IMG/VR virus record: IMGVR_UViG_3300017759_000058
Span: 1-26,600 of that record
Length of the DNA stretch: 26,600 nt
DNA from: a virus
Direction: 5' to 3' (one strand)
Positions 3,101-25,811 of this stretch are shown one piece after another. The first letter of the stretch is position 1. Each line of letters starts with the position of its first letter. A model generated the notes under the pieces. That model made no database searches. It was not told where the DNA came from and saw only the letters and a program-made list of their open reading frames with translations. The translations under genes and the position numbers were made by a program.

Positions 3101-6100
3101 TGATATACATAAGCAAGTGTCTTTTCTTGATACACAGGTCCCAACTGACCAGCTTCACGAATCGTTAGCAAAAGATTGTCACGAGCAGCATAGTCAATCT
3201 CATATTCTCCATCAACAGGAAAAACTACATTATCCCATACAACCTCATAAGCTTCAGAAATTTCAGACAAATCAAGAACATCTTCCTTCACAGTAAGTTG
3301 TTTAATTTTCTTAATCTTAAGACCAATATTCTCATCAAAACCATTACTAATATTGTCATCAAAACCAACTGTGGTTTTATCAATTGTTTTAAACCCAGAA
3401 TCACTACTTCCACCAATAATTTTTACCTTATACTTTTTGCCACCAGTAAACTCTCCTTTACCTTTAACTTTTTCCTTCTCTTTACCAGTATAATAACTTG
3501 ACCTGTTACTTCCTCTACCATTACCTCTCCCAAAACGACCATCGGGAGGAAGTGCCCTAGAGGTAGAATTTAGTGTTACATCTCTTTTTAAAATAAGTGG
3601 TTGGGTGTCAGTTTCAATTCTTATTTCACTGGCAGCCAGTCCAGAATCTGTGAGATTATCATTAACATCCATTAAAAAATCAATCTCTACTTCACCAACA
3701 CCATTCAATTTCAAAAATAAGTCTGATCCATCTTTATCAAATTTTGCAGTAACTTTGTTCCTATTTTCTACAGTTGCTACCTTTCTATATGGGCGCACAC
3801 CGTACCTATTGAAAAAATCAGAGAGGTCACCTTCTCCGGATTCACCATCTGTTCTCCACAGCTTTTGATTGGCATCCTTAATACTATCTTTAGTATTAAA
3901 AATTGATACTACTGATTTGTCTCGTTTTTCAGGCGCATCAAATATCAATTTGCATCTGTTTCCATTGATGTTAATAAACCTACCACAACTAACAGTGCAA
4001 ACTAAAACTGACTGATCATCATCTCCATTATCTTCCATTTGAAGAACATTTTCTCCAGCAGTTTTAAGTTTAATATTAGCTTTTTTACGACTACTATCAC
4101 CACCACTTACCTTAATAGTTTTCGTTACATCATCTTTCCTATCTTTATGTGCTGTCTGCTTCCACACCTCACCACCAACTTTAATATTGCCAACTGCCTC
4201 TCCATTTTTATTTGGATTTTCATCCCACTTCAATTGTAAAGTGACATCACCCTCACCTTTAACAATTAACTTAAGATCCTTATCATTGCTCCCACTAAAC
4301 CTAGCACTAACTCCAGGTGATGTTGATAAAATTTTGAATTGTGCGTCAGTATCCATTTGATAAGCCGCATCTGTGAATTTAATTGTCTTATTGGAAACAG
4401 ATTTAACTTGAGCAGTAGGTCCCCTACCCAAAGATCCAGGGTCTGCTACTCGAATCTTATATTCATTACTCTTTCCTCCACCGCCAGGACTACTGCTAGT
4501 GCAAGTAACATCATACTCTTTTCCATGTTCAACCGTGCGCGAGAAAGATTTATTTAATTGCTCACCCCCACGATCTTTAGTAAAATCAATATTTAAATCA
4601 GGAATTTTAATTCCACTTGCAAAATCTGAATCTGTAGTTACTTTAAAATCAATTTCAGTTGGACAGCCACCACGACCACCATTGCTATAAATTTGTTTTA
4701 GATCTCTGGTCTTAATTTTAGGCTCATTTAGAACATCCAATCTAACTTCATGAACACCCCTCTCTATTTTCCTTGTCCACTTACCTGGCTTTTCTTTGTT
4801 TGTTATTCCCGGCAAATCGTCAATCGTTTCACCATCAATCAATAACTGCCCACCAGTATCAGCCTGCCCTTTAAATACGTAATCTCCAGTGATTGGGAAA
4901 TTTATATCCCACTTCATTATATATTGAATATTGGAATAATCTGATCCAGGTGAATCTGATGCGGGAACTGGAGATATCGCATACTTATTCATAAAGCTTT
5001 CCCGTGGCTTGGGATCTTTATCAATGCGGAAAGTTAGACTATGAGAGTTTCTAGCTTGATCTTTCAGAGGATCTCCTTTCAAGAGTTTAGTACCTCTAAA
5101 TTCACCACGTCTAGAAAAAATCTGCAAGTCATCATTATCATTTGCCGATCCAATGATATCGAAAAATGCAGCTTTACTCTTTGCAGCATCCGTCAAATCT
5201 GTATAACTACCCTCCCTATCAAGTACCTTTTCAACACCATCTTTACCAAAAGAGCGTTCCTTAAGTAACTGCTGTTCTATTTTTTCTTTTGCCGTTCCTT
5301 TAAGACCTTTAGGAGTTACTTTGTATGTAGTGTTTAGCTTTACTTTTTTCCTAAATGTTTGAGTAAAATTCTGATTTATTCCCTTCAAAGTAAATTTATG
5401 ACCACTATCATCTTGAGCAACAAATTCTACCTCAATTCTTCTATTCTTTATGCTTCCACTACTAAAGACATCAAACTCTGTAAATACAAAATCTGTATCA
5501 TATATTTTCTCTCCCCACTTCCAATGCTCAACATCATATTTCAACCTATTGAAATTTATTTTAGAAGATGTTTGAGCAAAACTACGAGTTCTAGTAGACC
5601 ACCAAGGATTCGTAAGATTTTTCATGTATCTCTGATACATTTGTATCTCAGTGAAGTTTGGGATATTAGTATCTGTCAGATAGGCATCGGGATCCCAATC
5701 TCCAATTTCATACCCATTCTCATCGTAATCAGAAGATAATGTATTGTCTTCTACCGGTATTTTATAATCCTCAAAATCAAAGTCACCAAAACTAATAGCT
5801 TCAGTTTCAACAGGCCCAATTCTTGAGAGAAATTTTGGCATCAATCTTGTACCATCATCCTCAATAGTAACCTTTGGCTCACAAGTATAACCAAATCCGT
5901 GACTAATAACCTCAACTGATAAAACAGAATTATCTTCTGGACTAATAACTATATTAGCTGCTGCACCTACTCCACCACACCCACTTATGTTAACTTTAGG
6001 TACACTCTTTTTATCATTTTTATTGATTCCTTTTACGCCTTTACATTTTTTCTTAGTTTTTACATCTTCGGTTGTTAGTTTATTTACTTTATTAATTGTC

Positions 6101-18518: not shown

Positions 18519-19172
18519 ATGTCAAATTACTTTTCAAAGCTACCAGATTTTGAATATGTCAGTCGCAAACCAAATGCGAAAATCTCTGAGTTTATCCCCG
18601 TAAAAAACTTATTCAAGAGGGGATTTATTAGAGAGGATATCCTGCAAAATGTAGCATTCTTCAATAAGTACACTATCGATGGAGACGACCGTCCATATAC
18701 AGTAGCATATAATGTCTATGATAGTGAGGATCTAGATTGGCTAGTACTAGCATGTAATAATATAATCAATGTACAGAGTGAGTGGCCAATGACACAAGAA
18801 GTATTCAATGATTATCTATTGAAAAAGTACAAAACATATGAAAAGATGTCAGATATACACCACTACGAAACAAGTGAAGTTAGAAAACCAACTGGAGAAG
18901 TGGTGTTAGAAGCTGGTCTGGAAGTAGATGAAGGCTTTACATATACTTTCGGTCACGGCAATCAAATCATCACAGAGAATCCAACAGTACCAGTAACATG
19001 TTATGAATATGAGGAAAAACTTGAAAATAAAAAGAGACAACTATTTTTATTGAAACCAAAATACGTACACATTGTATTAGATGATCTTGATGAGATGATG
19101 AGATATGCAAAAGGGGCAGACAATTACATCAACAGAAAATTAAAAAGAGCAGATAATATCAGACTATATTAA
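18519..19172 (+). CDS. gp53: gp53 baseplate wedge subunit
   Basis: The 217-aa sequence (T4 gp53 is 196 aa) starts MSNYFSKLPDFEYV and contains YTIDGDDRPYTVAYNVYDS and LDWLVLACNNIINV, the pattern of the Phage_gp53 family, whose first part has a LysM-like fold. gp53 joins the six wedges to the hub during baseplate assembly. Its N-terminal half ends near WPMTQEVFNDYL and the C-terminal half contains a Lys/Arg-rich helix (YEEKLENKKRQLF). AGGA lies about 10 bases before the ATG, inside the gp48 end. It is the last plus-strand gene before the convergent gp32 operon; on this strand the following hairpin lacks a U-tract. Confidence 0.9.
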   Translation: MSNYFSKLPDFEYVSRKPNAKISEFIPVKNLFKRGFIREDILQNVAFFNKYTIDGDDRPYTVAYNVYDSEDLDWLVLACNNIINVQSEWPMTQEVFNDYLLKKYKTYEKMSDIHHYETSEVRKPTGEVVLEAGLEVDEGFTYTFGHGNQIITENPTVPVTCYEYEEKLENKKRQLFLLKPKYVHIVLDDLDEMMRYAKGADNYINRKLKRADNIRLY

Positions 19173-19177
19173 GACAT

Positions 19178-19202
19178 AAAAAAACCACCCCGAAGGGTGG
19201 TT
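19178..19202 (-). terminator. Intrinsic terminator of the gp32 transcript (UUCG tetraloop)
   Basis: On the minus strand an 8-bp stem (AACCACCC/GGGTGGTT) closes a TTCG tetraloop and is followed by a run of seven T, two of which come from the stem. It begins 10 bases after the gp32 stop. Read on the plus strand, the stem is followed by GATG, so it should end gp53 transcripts poorly. Confidence 0.93.
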
Positions 19203-19212
19203 GATGTTCTAA

Positions 19213-20151
19213 TTATGCGTCAGCGAGTTTTTGGAAATAACTCAGTGCATCATCTTCATCCTCATTGTTACTAGTAGTAGCTTGAGGTGTGATATCAGGT
19301 GCATTGAAGTCGCTCTCAACAGGTGCAGATCGCTCAAACTTTGGTTTGAAGGAACCACGACCTTCGCTTTCGTCACTCAACTCCTCATCATAAACAGCAG
19401 GACGATCAACTTGCTTCTTAGCAAGAACAAGATTCAAACGAGCTTGCAACTGTTCATATGTTTTGAACTGATCGGGAGCAACAATTTGCTCAAGAGAATA
19501 CTCTTGGTTCCAGATTGCTTCCATTGCGTCGTCGTCTTCCAGAAGAGGTTCAGGTGTACCAAACTCTGACTTGTCATAGTTCCAGTAACCATCCTTACGA
19601 ACGATCTTCAACTTGAAGTTTGCACCTTCCCAGAAATCAAAAGGATTGATAGGAGTCTCATCTTCAAACTCGGGTTGCATAGCTTCCATGACCTTATCAA
19701 AGATCTTTTTGCCATACTTGAAGAGGAATACTCGTCCTTCGTTACCAGGATTTGCTTTGTCCTGCACAACATAGATATTGCTGTAATAGCTCAGCTTACG
19801 CTTTTGCTTACGAACAGTATCTTTATCGGCTTCATTGCCACTATTCCAAAGCTCTCGATTGTATTCACCAAGTGGATCTTTCTGACCAAGGGTAGTCAGA
19901 GAGTTTTCAATATACCAGCCACCAGGACCTTGGAATGCATGAGCATACATCTTTGCCCAGGGCAGCTCTTCCCCATCCGGAGGAGGAAGAAAACGGATAA
20001 CGGCATAACCATTACCTGCTTTATCAACTTCTGGCTTCCAGAGGCGCTCATCAGCACCTGAGCCAGCGTTATTCATCTTCTCAACTTCTTTTACCAATTT
20101 AGTGGTAAGTGAACCGAGACCGGATTGCTTCTTGAGATTTGCGAAAGACAT
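19213..20151 (-). CDS. gp32: gp32 single-stranded DNA-binding protein
   Basis: This 312-aa protein (T4: 301) shows the gp32 plan: an N-terminal basic region for cooperativity (NLKKQSGLGSL), an OB-fold core with WKPEVDKAGNGYAVIRFLP, SYYSNIYVVQDKANPGNEG and NPFDFWEGANFKLKI, and an acidic C-terminal tail (NNEDEDDALSYF) that recruits partners such as gp59. The T4 zinc site (one His, three Cys) is not kept: the matching stretch 71-97 has His71 but Asp and Gly where Cys are expected, and the whole protein has no Cys. It coats replicating and recombining DNA. No clear Shine-Dalgarno site precedes the ATG; a strong sigma70-like promoter lies upstream and a terminator directly downstream, so a separate gp32 mRNA is likely. 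Confidence 0.95.
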   Translation of the reverse strand: MSFANLKKQSGLGSLTTKLVKEVEKMNNAGSGADERLWKPEVDKAGNGYAVIRFLPPPDGEELPWAKMYAHAFQGPGGWYIENSLTTLGQKDPLGEYNRELWNSGNEADKDTVRKQKRKLSYYSNIYVVQDKANPGNEGRVFLFKYGKKIFDKVMEAMQPEFEDETPINPFDFWEGANFKLKIVRKDGYWNYDKSEFGTPEPLLEDDDAMEAIWNQEYSLEQIVAPDQFKTYEQLQARLNLVLAKKQVDRPAVYDEELSDESEGRGSFKPKFERSAPVESDFNAPDITPQATTSNNEDEDDALSYFQKLADA

Positions 20152-20887: not shown

Positions 20888-21476
20888 GGATTACAATCTC
20901 CTTTAAAATATTTTTATAATGAGCTGTGTTGATATTTAGGAAGGAAGAATACTTCCTCATTTTAAGACTTACGGATTCCCACACCGGGTCTGTGAGCTTT
21001 GCATCGAAATCGTTGCGATACTCTAGTATTTTATCACATATCACGAGAGTTTCAAGTGATATATCACCACTCAAATACATTTTAAGTATGAGTGGGTGTG
21101 TGCTACTTCCTACGAATAATGAATTTAAATCATTCTCCGTAAGAAGAGATGACATTTCTTCTTTAAAAACATATGAAAGAGATTGTGTTCTCTTCTTCCA
21201 TAAAGTATAGCGTTCTTCCCCCTCACGGATCATCTCACCAATCCATAGTTTCCCAGGATCAGTGCATGAAACAAAATTTGATAGGAAGAAATCAATGACT
21301 TCTTGATCACTTTTATTTCTGGCTAATTTTTCAAACCAGAAGCGATCTTTACGTTTATAAAAAGACTGGACTGTTGCACGAGTTTTACCACAATATTTGT
21401 GATAATCATATTTATCTTTAGTGAAATGGTTCTTCAAAGACAAATAGCATTTGTATGCATCAAAGGGCATCATCAT
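20877..21476 (-). CDS. gp59: gp59 loader of the gp41 DNA helicase
   Basis: The sequence is helical throughout and matches the gp59 family (T4: 217 aa; here 199 from the chosen start). Visible features are the N-terminal PFDAYKCYLSLKNHF, TRATVQSFYKRKDRFWFEKLA, then SNFVSCTDPGKLWIGEM and, in the C-terminal domain, LILKMYLSGDISLETLVI. gp59 binds fork DNA and gp32 and places the replicative helicase. The frame is open back to a TTG at 21479, but three ATGs follow at 21476, 21473 and 21470. The first shares its A with the TGA of gp33 (TGATG), a usual coupling arrangement, so it is preferred. Co-location with gp32 and gp33 repeats the T4 gene neighbourhood. Confidence 0.92.
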   Translation of the reverse strand: MMMPFDAYKCYLSLKNHFTKDKYDYHKYCGKTRATVQSFYKRKDRFWFEKLARNKSDQEVIDFFLSNFVSCTDPGKLWIGEMIREGEERYTLWKKRTQSLSYVFKEEMSSLLTENDLNSLFVGSSTHPLILKMYLSGDISLETLVICDKILEYRNDFDAKLTDPVWESVSLKMRKYSSFLNINTAHYKNILKEIVIHGT

Positions 21477-21733
21477 CAAAGGGGTAGTTTTGCTCTGGAA
21501 GTTTTCTTCAAAAAGTTGAGTTCCATCGCCTCGTATTTAATTTTTTCTTTCAATGGTTTTGAAATTAGTTTTGGAACTGATTCTATATCAATACTATTTT
21601 GCTCACAAAAGTGAACAATAGCATCAATATACTTCATATCAGAATTATACTTCACAATCTGCTCAATCTCTTGAACAAACTTAGCAGAGCTATAGAACTT
21701 TTTTTCTAATTCCTTTTCTAATTCACTTGACAT
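21476..21733 (-). CDS. gp33: gp33 late-transcription coactivator
   Basis: From the preferred ATG at 21733 the protein has 85 residues, with the family pattern MKYIDAIVHFCEQNSIDIES followed by LISKPLKEKIKYEAMELNFL. In T4, gp33 (112 aa) bridges RNA polymerase (beta flap) and the gp45 sliding clamp and, with gp55, activates late promoters of the NATAAATA type, which are present in this window. The open frame extends to a TTG at 21763, but the ATG overlaps the upstream stop by 11 bases and fits better; no Shine-Dalgarno sequence is visible for either. The C-terminus (SRAKLPL) is hydrophobic but lacks the acidic residues of the T4 clamp-binding tail, so clamp contact may differ. Confidence 0.85.
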   Translation of the reverse strand: MSSELEKELEKKFYSSAKFVQEIEQIVKYNSDMKYIDAIVHFCEQNSIDIESVPKLISKPLKEKIKYEAMELNFLKKTSRAKLPL

Positions 21734-22409
21734 TGGTTGGTAGCAGAGTATTGTGTTGTACAAATTCTTTAATATACCTCACTAATAGTTTAATGTAGAC
21801 ATCTTTATCTCGTTTGTCAAATACTTTGACATCACCACTTGGAGTAACCATGAGAGTGATAAGTTTTTTAACTGGAATACCAGTCATTTCATAATATGCT
21901 GAAGCATAAAACATCTCCTGAACGAAATAATTTTCCAACCATTCTTCGGGTTTGATTTTATCAGAGGTCTTAAAGTCAATTACTGCAAGTTCACCTTCAT
22001 ATTCACCAATACAATCTACACGACCTGCTAATCCAAGATATTCAGAGTAGAGAGTTCGTTCGATTGCATGAATATTATTGATACGATCAAGATAGGGTTT
22101 TGCATGAGCAAACATTATTTTTGTCAAAGGTCTAAATTCATTCCAATGCAAATCAAGATTCATTAGATATGCCTGAGCTGCTTCATGGAAATCAGTGCCG
22201 CGAGTTGTGGCACGTTTTGTAATCCGATCGGCTTCTGCATCCCCAACTTTCTTACGCCAGTTAATAAAGATCTGTCGATTATAAAAAGAAGTTACAGAAG
22301 TAATTGAAGGAACCCAATCGCCATTTGGGAGATTATACAATCTCATTCCTGGTGTTTCTTTTTTAGTCAACTCAATATCGCCTAGGTAATTATGATGAAT
22401 AAAATTCAT
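21723..22409 (-). CDS. PD-(D/E)XK exonuclease (RecB/MGME1-like)
   Basis: Counted from the ATG at 22409, the 228-aa protein has an ordered RecB-type nuclease core: GTDFHEAAQAYL (71-82), AGRVDCI with Asp132, and IDFK with Asp145 and Lys147, followed by a Q-x3-Y helix (VQEMFYASAYY, from ~163). These are the metal and motif residues of PDDEXK_1 exonucleases, which include Cas4, lambda-type nucleases and mitochondrial MGME1. The start LxHNYLGDIEL plus PSITSVTSFY also fits the exonucleases of other cyanophages. A role in processing DNA ends for recombination-dependent replication is likely, given gp59 and gp32 downstream. The frame opens further up at a GTG (22430) with AAGG before it, but a promoter -10 sits there, so the ATG is preferred. 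Confidence 0.85.
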   Translation of the reverse strand: MNFIHHNYLGDIELTKKETPGMRLYNLPNGDWVPSITSVTSFYNRQIFINWRKKVGDAEADRITKRATTRGTDFHEAAQAYLMNLDLHWNEFRPLTKIMFAHAKPYLDRINNIHAIERTLYSEYLGLAGRVDCIGEYEGELAVIDFKTSDKIKPEEWLENYFVQEMFYASAYYEMTGIPVKKLITLMVTPSGDVKVFDKRDKDVYIKLLVRYIKEFVQHNTLLPTNVK

Positions 22410-23552: not shown

Positions 23553-24302
23553 TTAAAGTCCAAGTTCATGCTTAGCAATTAGATATTCTTTACAAAGACC
23601 AGATCTCACAATATCATCCAAACCAAATTCAATAATATCAATAGATGGCATATTCCGGAGAATATTCATAAAGTCAATGATACCATTCTTTTCATTTGTC
23701 TTAATCAAATCAGTTTGAGTTGCATCACCACAGAACATGATTTTTGCATCCTCACCTACACGAGTAATTATACTATCCAACTCATGAAAATTCAAGTTCT
23801 GAAATTCATCAATAATCAAAATAGAACGATCAAGTGTAGTACCACGAATAAATGATGTACTCCAAAAACTAATAGTCTCTTGTGCTTTCAAATTACCATA
23901 AAGCATTTCAAAGTCAGCTTGAGTGGGGAGTTCAAACATATACTTTACCATATTCTTATAAGGAATCTGATAAAGAGAACTCTTGTCCTCATGATCACCA
24001 GGTAGGAAACCAATCTCTCTGGTGGCTACAAGCGATCTTACGATGTAAATCTTATCATATGGGGTATTTGGGTTTAAAACGTCTCTGAGAGCGTTGTAGA
24101 GGGTAATGAAGGTCTTTCCTGTACCCGCTGCACCATATGCAATGATGTTCTGTCCTTTTTTATATTGTTCAAATAGCTTCTCTTGATTCTCCGTTAATGG
24201 CTCAACGGTTTTCATCAGATCAGCATTAAGTGGTTTCTTCCGTTTCATCTGTCGATTACTCATTCCAAAAGGTGATACTGACTTTGAATTCCTCTTTGGC
24301 AT
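23553..24302 (-). CDS. phoH: PhoH-like P-loop ATPase
   Basis: A 249-aa P-loop protein with Walker A GAAGTGKT (57-64) and Walker B ILIIDE (161-166) followed by FQN, plus the PhoH marks LTENQEKLFEQY, RSLVATREIGFLPGD and CGDATQTDL. The first ~30 residues are basic (NRQMKRKKP). PhoH is part of the phosphate-starvation regulon in E. coli and is very common in marine phages; its biochemical task is unsettled, with helicase- or nuclease-linked roles proposed. No pho-box was recognised upstream. The ribosome site is weak (AGAAGAG next to the ATG). Gene order thyX, FmdB-like, phoH, epimerase forms one direction, with small gaps. Confidence 0.95.
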   Translation of the reverse strand: MPKRNSKSVSPFGMSNRQMKRKKPLNADLMKTVEPLTENQEKLFEQYKKGQNIIAYGAAGTGKTFITLYNALRDVLNPNTPYDKIYIVRSLVATREIGFLPGDHEDKSSLYQIPYKNMVKYMFELPTQADFEMLYGNLKAQETISFWSTSFIRGTTLDRSILIIDEFQNLNFHELDSIITRVGEDAKIMFCGDATQTDLIKTNEKNGIIDFMNILRNMPSIDIIEFGLDDIVRSGLCKEYLIAKHELGL

Positions 24303-24617: not shown

Positions 24618-25346
24618 TTATTCAAGTGTGATAGCAGATTGATCAAAGCATTCTGGACACTCTGGTTTGGCTTCCCATCCTAATGCTTCAGCAACTTCAG
24701 GAAACTGGCAAATAAAAACACACCTACATCCCTCTGCAATCTCCATGTGCTCCTTCTGTGTACCATTTGCAGACCTCAAATTGATGTAATGTATCCAAGA
24801 CCTTACGGAACCCGTCATATAGATCCTTGTAGGCGTCGATAAGGGCAATACAAACCTCGCACACTCTTTTGCAATTCCCTCATCTACCATCTCACGATAC
24901 AAGTCCATCGCTTCACGAAAATGTTTTTGAGTTAAAATCTCATATCGTTGCATTGTAAATGGATCAAGGTCATCAATACTATTCTGACGATTCTTTGTAT
25001 CCTGTCTTCTCAGTTCTGGAAGAGGAATGTCTTGTGCTAACAATGAACTATCAGCATAGCGTTGTGAAAATTCCTGATATGTAAATGATCTATGACGCAG
25101 AATCTGAGCAGCCAATCCTCTAGTAGTATTGATCTCTAAAGTCATACTTGCTTGCTCAAAGATCGACCAGTGTTCATGTTTAATACAGTATCTAAGAAGA
25201 CCTGCAGCAGTATCAAAGTTTAGTTGATTATTTGGGTTGCTTACACGAGCAACATATGAAATAACTTCTTGTGCGGTTTTCCCAAGAAGTTCACCTGCAC
25301 CTTGAGTTAGGGCAATAAGCTTTACTTGATCAGTCTGGATACCCAT
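24618..25346 (-). CDS. thyX: Flavin-dependent thymidylate synthase ThyX
   Basis: From the preferred ATG at 25346 the enzyme has 242 aa. The ThyX signature RHR-x7-S is complete at residues 84-94 (RHRSFTYQEFS) and QRY follows; the substrate/FAD helices with FVLPLSTPTRIYMTGSVRSW are also present. ThyX makes dTMP from dUMP using folate, FAD and NADPH, supporting phage DNA synthesis. The frame is open for 30 codons further up, but AGGAG at 25353-25357 lies six bases before ATG 25346, and the shorter start MGIQTD fits; two ATGs directly before it are less well spaced. It overlaps the 61-aa gene by 17 bases. The C-terminus carries a CPEC pair (PECPECFDQ), which may be a metal site or simply family variation. 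Confidence 0.95.
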   Translation of the reverse strand: MGIQTDQVKLIALTQGAGELLGKTAQEVISYVARVSNPNNQLNFDTAAGLLRYCIKHEHWSIFEQASMTLEINTTRGLAAQILRHRSFTYQEFSQRYADSSLLAQDIPLPELRRQDTKNRQNSIDDLDPFTMQRYEILTQKHFREAMDLYREMVDEGIAKECARFVLPLSTPTRIYMTGSVRSWIHYINLRSANGTQKEHMEIAEGCRCVFICQFPEVAEALGWEAKPECPECFDQSAITLE

Positions 25347-25515
25347 CATCATCTCCTGTATACACTTCGTCATAGTCGGTAATGAAGTTTGCAATCTCTG
25401 CATACTTATCATCTTGTGGCTTATAAGCATCAACATCAGAATAAACTTCTGATTTCAATACCTCCACAAGAGACTCTAAGTTTCTTATGATAAGTTTTAA
25501 CTTTTCTCTATTCAT
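25330..25515 (-). CDS. Small acidic protein, first gene of the thyX-phoH operon
   Basis: This 61-aa protein has an amphipathic N-terminal helix (KLKLIIRNLESLVEVLKSEV) and a strongly acidic, Tyr-rich C-terminus (DYDEVYTGDDDGY). AAGG lies about 10 bases before the ATG. It starts 24 bases after the -10 of a perfect sigma70 promoter, so it is the first gene of the transcript and should be made very early. The stop overlaps the thyX start by 17 bases. No family was recognised. An acidic early protein that binds a host factor is one option; nothing in the sequence proves it. Confidence 0.85.
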   Translation of the reverse strand: MNREKLKLIIRNLESLVEVLKSEVYSDVDAYKPQDDKYAEIANFITDYDEVYTGDDDGYPD

Positions 25516-25538
25516 TTCTTATCAACCTTGGCAGAGTT

Positions 25539-25567
25539 ATTATACACAAAAAAAGAGGGTCTGTCAA
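25539..25567 (-). promoter_or_regulatory. Perfect sigma70 consensus promoter (TTGACA-17-TATAAT)
   Basis: TTGACA (25562-25567), 17 bases, then TATAAT (25539-25544): both hexamers are exact and the spacing is ideal. The -35 is formed by the tetraloop of the terminator hairpin plus its closing pair. A start near 25532 would give a leader of about 16 bases before the 61-aa gene. It should be read by unmodified host polymerase. Confidence 0.9.
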
Positions 25568-25575
25568 GACCCTCT
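25548..25575 (-). terminator. Intrinsic terminator after the 75-aa gene
   Basis: A 9-bp perfect stem (AGAGGGTCT/AGACCCTCT) with a four-base loop is followed on the minus strand by a run of seven T, the first belonging to the stem. It starts 9 bases after the stop of the 75-aa gene and ends the small-gene transcript while containing the -35 of the next promoter. Confidence 0.93.
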
Positions 25576-25583
25576 GTATGAAT

Positions 25584-25811
25584 TTACCAATCTAAGTTCC
25601 ACATATCCTTCGGACTTTTGCCCGTAGCTTTTTGATAGAACCATTCAAGCGAGTTAACCATTACCCATTTCTGGTAGTTAACCCCACGATAACAAAGATT
25701 CGCGTAAACATATTCTGGTTCAATTGGTCTGTTGACTTTTGTTGTTGCAAAATCCTTTGGTAATTGGTAATACATTGAGTTAGCTTCTTTGGGTGCATAT
25801 AGCGATGCCAT
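25584..25811 (-). CDS. Small protein with a YRGVNY motif, last of the small-gene cluster
   Basis: A 75-aa protein rich in Tyr and Trp. Around residue 42 it has NLCYRGVNYQKW, similar to the YRGxxY motif of DUF4278-type small proteins found in cyanobacteria and their phages; the 57-aa gene upstream has the same motif twice. The C-terminal part (EWFYQKATGKSPKDMW) may be a helix. No good ribosome site precedes the ATG, which lies inside the end of the 27-aa ORF, so translation is probably coupled to that ORF. The terminator follows 9 bases after the stop. Function unknown. Confidence 0.8.
   Translation of the reverse strand: MASLYAPKEANSMYYQLPKDFATTKVNRPIEPEYVYANLCYRGVNYQKWVMVNSLEWFYQKATGKSPKDMWNLDW

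Follow-up and report, generated by a model that had tools for sequence, protein, structure and literature searches.

Can 37 bases of phage DNA both end one transcript and begin the next, or do the two signals found together there coincide by chance? The question arises at positions 25539–25575 of an IMG/VR record of 26.6 kb, analysed here over its whole length (the window), which is a fragment of a marine T4-like cyanophage (Kyanoviridae-type) and matches Synechococcus and Prochlorococcus T4-like phages of the family Kyanoviridae. On the comparisons set out below, we consider it very probable that the stretch serves both functions, as a fused one-directional terminator-promoter marking a transcription-unit boundary in a T4-like cyanophage. 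Judged by sequence, the element is one member of a class that recurs at many cyanophage gene boundaries.

Anatomy of the element and its gene neighbourhood

The initial annotation described a terminator on the minus strand with a 9-bp stem, a TGAC loop and a run of seven Ts, all of which proved exact on re-reading. From 25575 to 25539 the minus strand reads AGAGGGTC-TTGACA-GACCCTCTTTTTTTGTG-TATAAT; as had been stated, TTGACA lies in the loop plus its closing pair and TATAAT stands 17 bases further on, both hexamers being exact. The T run had also been given a double role, as terminator tail and as promoter spacer, and the positions of the parts agree with such a reading, the run falling inside the spacer:

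25554–25575, minus strand: predicted terminator hairpin with a 9-bp stem, AGAGGGTCT (25575–25567) / AGACCCTCT (25562–25554)
25563–25566, minus strand: hairpin loop, TGAC
25548–25554, minus strand: T7 run, putative U-tract of the terminator, also part of the promoter spacer
25562–25567, minus strand: -35 hexamer TTGACA, made of the loop and the closing T-A pair, kept in relatives
25545–25561, minus strand: spacer of 17 nt, comprising 3' arm, T run and GTG
25539–25544, minus strand: -10 hexamer TATAAT, with a predicted transcription start at ∼25532

Nowhere else in the 26.6 kb is there a 12/12 promoter match, and the element also tops the terminator list obtained by scanning the window. The RNA hairpin folds at -14.5 kcal/mol, and 3 of 200 shuffled sequences folded equally well. 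Perfect promoters with 17-nt spacing are expected 0.0125 times per random sequence of the window's size (same dinucleotide make-up, both strands), a figure for the promoter alone, with the hairpin not yet demanded. The intergenic gap that holds the element measures 68 nt, from the stop of the upstream ORF (which ends at 25584) to the next ATG (25515), both on the minus strand. Taken together, the exact anatomy, the chance expectation and the gap indicate that the observation is right and not a product of chance.

The stem is GC-rich and at least 5 bp long, the loop is short and the tail on the transcribed strand is U-rich, as in intrinsic terminators, and sigma70-type promoters are described by TTGACA, 16–18 nt and TATAAT, matched here at 12/12 positions with 17 nt. 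The hairpin has no T run on the plus strand and the terminator should therefore be one-directional. Searching Rfam with the window and six cyanophage loci gave no match at gathering score. We rejected a late promoter on sequence misfit: the T4-type late promoter TATAAATA is not matched by the window, which has TATAATAA, or by relatives, which have TATAATTA and TAGAATG. An attenuator of its own operon was also rejected, as the hairpin lies upstream of the predicted start.

The genes and signals around the element are the following:

25584–25811, minus strand: small upstream ORF of 75 aa without a Pfam family, candidate for the transcript ending at the hairpin
25330–25515, minus strand: 61-aa ORF, first 3' of the promoter, without a Pfam family
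24618–25346, minus strand: thyX, flavin-dependent thymidylate synthase of the Thy1 family (start picked from relatives)
23553–24302, minus strand: phoH-like gene
21476–21763, minus strand: gp33-like late-transcription coactivator, in the same minus-strand gene run as thyX
19213–20151, minus strand: gp32 single-strand DNA-binding protein, final gene of the minus-strand run
19183–19202, minus strand: strong TTCG-loop terminator, which would close the operon begun at 25532

Small ORFs lie upstream of the element, and 3' of it the order of genes, all on the minus strand, is the 61-aa ORF, thyX, phoH, an epimerase, a PD-(D/E)XK nuclease, gp33, gp59 and gp32. A homologue of the 61-aa ORF appears to be present in Synechococcus phage Bellamy (the N terminus is alike). 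Since the element has small ORFs on one side and, on the other, a minus-strand run that ends at the TTCG-loop terminator, it stands at a likely transcription-unit boundary. A plus-strand gene (18519–19172) converges on the terminator after gp32.

Orthologous junctions upstream of thyX

DNA upstream of thyX was taken from 80 related viral contigs, and 77 loci with at least 300 nt upstream, the window included, were counted. At 42 of these 77 loci there is a terminator whose hairpin has a -35 at the apex, with a -10 at 16–18 bases. The spacing is exactly 17 in 36 of the 40 distinct elements, which between them have 28 different 3' arms; several kinds of base pair occur at almost every position of the stem. 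Among the -35 hexamers TTGACA, TTGACT, TTGACG and TTTACA predominate, and among the -10 hexamers TATAAT, TAAAAT and TAGAAT. Comparing related phages for joint conservation of loop, stem and -10 was the check proposed in the initial annotation, and at the thyX loci the stem drifts while loop and spacing stay. That one element would act as terminator and sigma70-type promoter at once is thus well supported by comparison: the loop, the 17-base spacing and the -10 are kept while the letters of the stem change and their pairing is kept. Related viruses rebuild the double signal with different letters, which marks it as a real, recurring device for punctuating compact genomes.

The changing stems also bear on the possibility that only the promoter is functional and that the palindrome over its -35 is an operator or forms a DNA cruciform. 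Palindromes over the -35 are common operators; this palindrome, however, varies in sequence between sites and even between near relatives, and its stem is GC-rich, a T run comes next on the transcribed strand, and the whole lies just past a stop codon. We regard a promoter without a terminator as very improbable.

As a control against selection, decoy motifs were scored in all terminators upstream of thyX (67 distinct), each hexamer being required to match at 5/6 positions or better. The combination TTGACA/TATAAT/17 occurs in 26 of the 67, compared with at most 9 for each of the other 179 anagrams of TTGACA, at most 8 for each other anagram of TATAAT and at most 5 for each other spacing from 8 to 39, counts that are not independent trials, because the sequences are related, and that come from a hairpin search which itself demands a T run.

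The thyX site can do without the device: the terminator at 16 of the 77 loci lacks a fused -35, and at 19 of the 77 no terminator was found within 850 nt. A second fused layout was seen upstream of thyX in Bellamy (3900–4030 of the stretch read) and at eight further loci. In these relatives TTGACT-17-TAGAAT, or a similar or weaker promoter, is followed directly by the hairpin GGGAGGGNNACCTCCC (GGGAGG-GNNA-CCTCCC) and then by a T run and ATG, an order that places the predicted transcription start within the hairpin.

Spread among cyanophages and other gene boundaries

Eleven Kyanoviridae genomes, read in pieces, gave 146 usable coding-strand terminators. An apex -35 (at least 5/6) is present in 19 of the 146, where random loops of equal composition would give 5.4 ± 2.3, so fused elements are a minority of terminators; many cyanophage genomes have one to four. 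A -10 at exactly 17 follows 12 of the 19 terminators with a -35 but only 18 of 130 without one (Fisher p = 1.1e-5). Chance overlap of the two signals was rejected on the anagram and spacing tests and on this association. The same results weigh on the view that the element is a terminator only and the promoter hexamers are accidental. Many cyanophage terminators do have other loops, TTCG being the commonest, but no other anagram or spacing scores as high as TTGACA and 17, and loop and -10 are associated across genomes, which leaves such an accident very improbable.

Promoters of both kinds lie close behind terminators in the 11 Kyanoviridae genomes: an exact TATAAT occurs within 30 nt after 21 of 147 terminators (2.0 expected) and the T4-type late promoter NATAAATA within 40 nt after 22 of 147 (1.4 expected). 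Near-consensus sigma70 promoters with 17-nt spacing show a strong forward-strand bias in cyanophage records (for example, 22:0 in Bellamy and 25:1 in SynMITS9220M01).

By whole-genome count the fused element is absent from T4 and from Pelagibacter phage HTVC008M, and S-PM2, Syn9 and P-SSM2 have no fully fused simple-loop element in that count. S-PM2 nonetheless has one element before hli03 (TTGACT, spacing 17, TATAAT), outside the whole-genome count. A GC-rich stem accompanies the -35 in 23 of the 81 exact TTGACA-T5-TATAAT matches listed for viral contigs and in 0 of the 81 listed for bacterial and archaeal genomes. Among the matches listed, 22 of the 23 stem-bearing viral contigs encode Kyanoviridae-like or other T4-like phage proteins.

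That the device recurs at many boundaries had not been noticed in the initial annotation. It was found at the following other gene boundaries, the boundary genes being taken from annotation in Bellamy, S-CAM3, ACG-2014i, S-RIM8, P-RSM4 and S-PM2 and from likeness of the flanking sequence in S-CAM1 and Sf-FR1:

pstS or a small ORF / hli, ahead of psbA: Bellamy 184228, S-CAM3 187624, S-CAM1 186199, Sf-FR1 169224, S-PM2 124309
hsp20 / ORF preceding DNA polymerase (gp43): Bellamy, S-CAM3, ACG-2014i and others
hsp20, two-part hairpins (record coordinates): Bellamy 136457, Sf-FR1 137122, SynMITS9220M01 120425, S-CAM3 159490, S-CAM1 158282
regA / restriction enzyme: S-CAM3 157537
ORF / helicase, in two genera: S-CAM3 50466, P-RSM4 43964
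ORF / dam: S-RIM8 31941
ORF / talC: P-RSM4 164204

In most phages the hsp20 site carries a two-part hairpin (outer arms GAGGGG/CCCCTC, inner arms CTGG/CCAG) whose internal loop holds the -35 on its 3' side, and the outer 3' arm and the T run make up the spacer. This position of the -35 is why the terminator finder misses these elements, which were found by reading and folding the sites. In ACG-2014i the hsp20 site has a simple loop. Across sites the constant feature is that the -35 is unpaired and immediately precedes the 3' arm. In S-CAM3 a type II restriction enzyme and methylase (157526–158857) follow regA with a fused element in front, like a self-contained cassette.

The idea of a promoter fused with a stem-loop in T4-type phages is not new. 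Arbiol et al. reportedly described in 2010, in the T4-type coliphages RB49 and phi1, promoter-early stem-loops (PeSLs), in which a sigma70-like promoter is joined to a stem-loop with terminator activity. Like the cyanophage elements, the PeSLs of RB49 combine a strong sigma70-like promoter with a stem-loop between genes of a T4-type phage. Among 69 strong promoters in the RB49 sequence, a hairpin fills the spacer in 12 (for example, TTGACA-GGGGATCGGTGATCCCC-TATAAT) and lies over the -10 or start in 7, whereas the -35 stands in a hairpin loop in none. Kyanoviridae, in contrast, have 14 promoters with the loop on the -35 (most, not all, with a T run) and 2 with a hairpin in the spacer. A hairpin within the spacer or over the -10 or start distinguishes the PeSLs of RB49, and the window element is built otherwise, with the -35 in the loop, the 3' arm and a canonical U-run as spacer, and then the -10. 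This suggests that T4-type phages have arrived at three or more different solutions for placing a promoter inside a stem-loop.

Could the element, like the PeSLs of RB49, be a mobile recombination cassette, kept chiefly because a shared element permits gene shuffling? The distance from element to thyX ranges from 211 to 782 nt in several clusters, the window and Sf-FR1 have different genes right behind the element, and accessory genes are flanked by elements, all of which would fit. The stems, however, share little sequence between sites and so offer little homology for recombination, and we consider this explanation unlikely. Copies of one mobile repeat were rejected, as the stems differ between sites.

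Proposed mechanism and significance

On the preferred reading, a fused terminator-promoter, host RNA polymerase entering from the small genes upstream would transcribe the hairpin and the U-run and halt near 25548. Initiation near 25532 would fall to host sigma70-type RNA polymerase, which would contact TTGACA within the loop and TATAAT beyond the T run; the new transcript would carry the 61-aa ORF, thyX, phoH, the exonuclease, gp33, gp59 and gp32 as far as the TTCG terminator at 19183–19202. As the new RNA would begin below the hairpin, it would not be stopped by it, and we infer the same for all layouts, including those at hsp20 and the Bellamy-type thyX site, where the predicted new RNA lacks the 5' arm. 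The fused layout can work because a 3' arm plus U-run has about the length of a promoter spacer; in a terminator only the loop and the bases past the U-run would be free to carry the -35 and the -10. What the phage chiefly gains is probably a sharply defined boundary that takes up very little DNA, and compaction with insulation is the simplest account.

The predicted RNA 3' end falls between the -35 and the -10, and the occupancies of the two polymerases must therefore overlap. Upstream traffic might then control the firing of the thyX-phoH operon through the overlapped signals; as a matter of geometry, a terminating polymerase could cover the promoter, or a promoter-bound one could block the incoming polymerase. 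The initial annotation had suggested that a stalled polymerase or an extruded hairpin would compete with promoter binding; extrusion of a 9-bp stem as a cruciform is unlikely. Such regulatory coupling agrees with the retention of the layout over many relatives. Yet the same layout precedes unrelated genes, other layouts replace it at the same site, and compaction alone explains it with no need for regulation, which makes coupling rather unlikely. A more specific version, distinctly unlikely in our view, is a control device particular to the T4-like cyanophage lineage: transcription from upstream and initiation downstream would physically exclude each other, and as early small-gene transcription decayed the thyX-phoH-gp33-gp32 promoter would be freed, which would help to time the passage to replication and late transcription.

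The element can be compared with several other known arrangements. With cyanophage intrinsic terminators it shares a GC-rich stem, a 4-nt loop, a U-run and a position past a stop codon, but their commonest loop is TTCG whereas that of the window element is the -35. Back-to-back pairs of a terminator and the late promoter in cyanophages likewise place a promoter directly 3' of a terminator; the late promoters, however, have no -35 and thus make no use of the loop. In Escherichia coli the ampC attenuator also ends the frd operon, so that, as here, a single stem-loop closes one operon beside the start of another. That stem-loop, unlike the one in the window, lies downstream of the start and attenuates the transcript of its own promoter, whereas the window's is upstream of the start. 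Morons of lambdoid phages, genes with their own promoter and terminator (PMC1524935), resemble the present case in having autonomous transcription signals at accessory genes, but there the two signals flank the gene and are not fused.

We found no description, in the literature that could be searched, of a fused terminator-promoter with this geometry, a -35 in the loop and a full U-run, recurring at conserved cyanophage junctions; this is not proof of novelty, and the comparison with PeSLs draws on general background and the RB49 sequence. The organization of early and middle transcription in cyanomyoviruses was termed still unclear in a 2010 review (PMC2984593). The element supplies a sequence-based rule by which the transcription units of uncultured marine phages can be drawn, one that covers conserved boundaries, including those ahead of the hli/psbA photosynthesis genes and of the thyX-gp32 operon, and it is a compact natural part that is predicted to end one transcript and begin the next in less than 40 bp.
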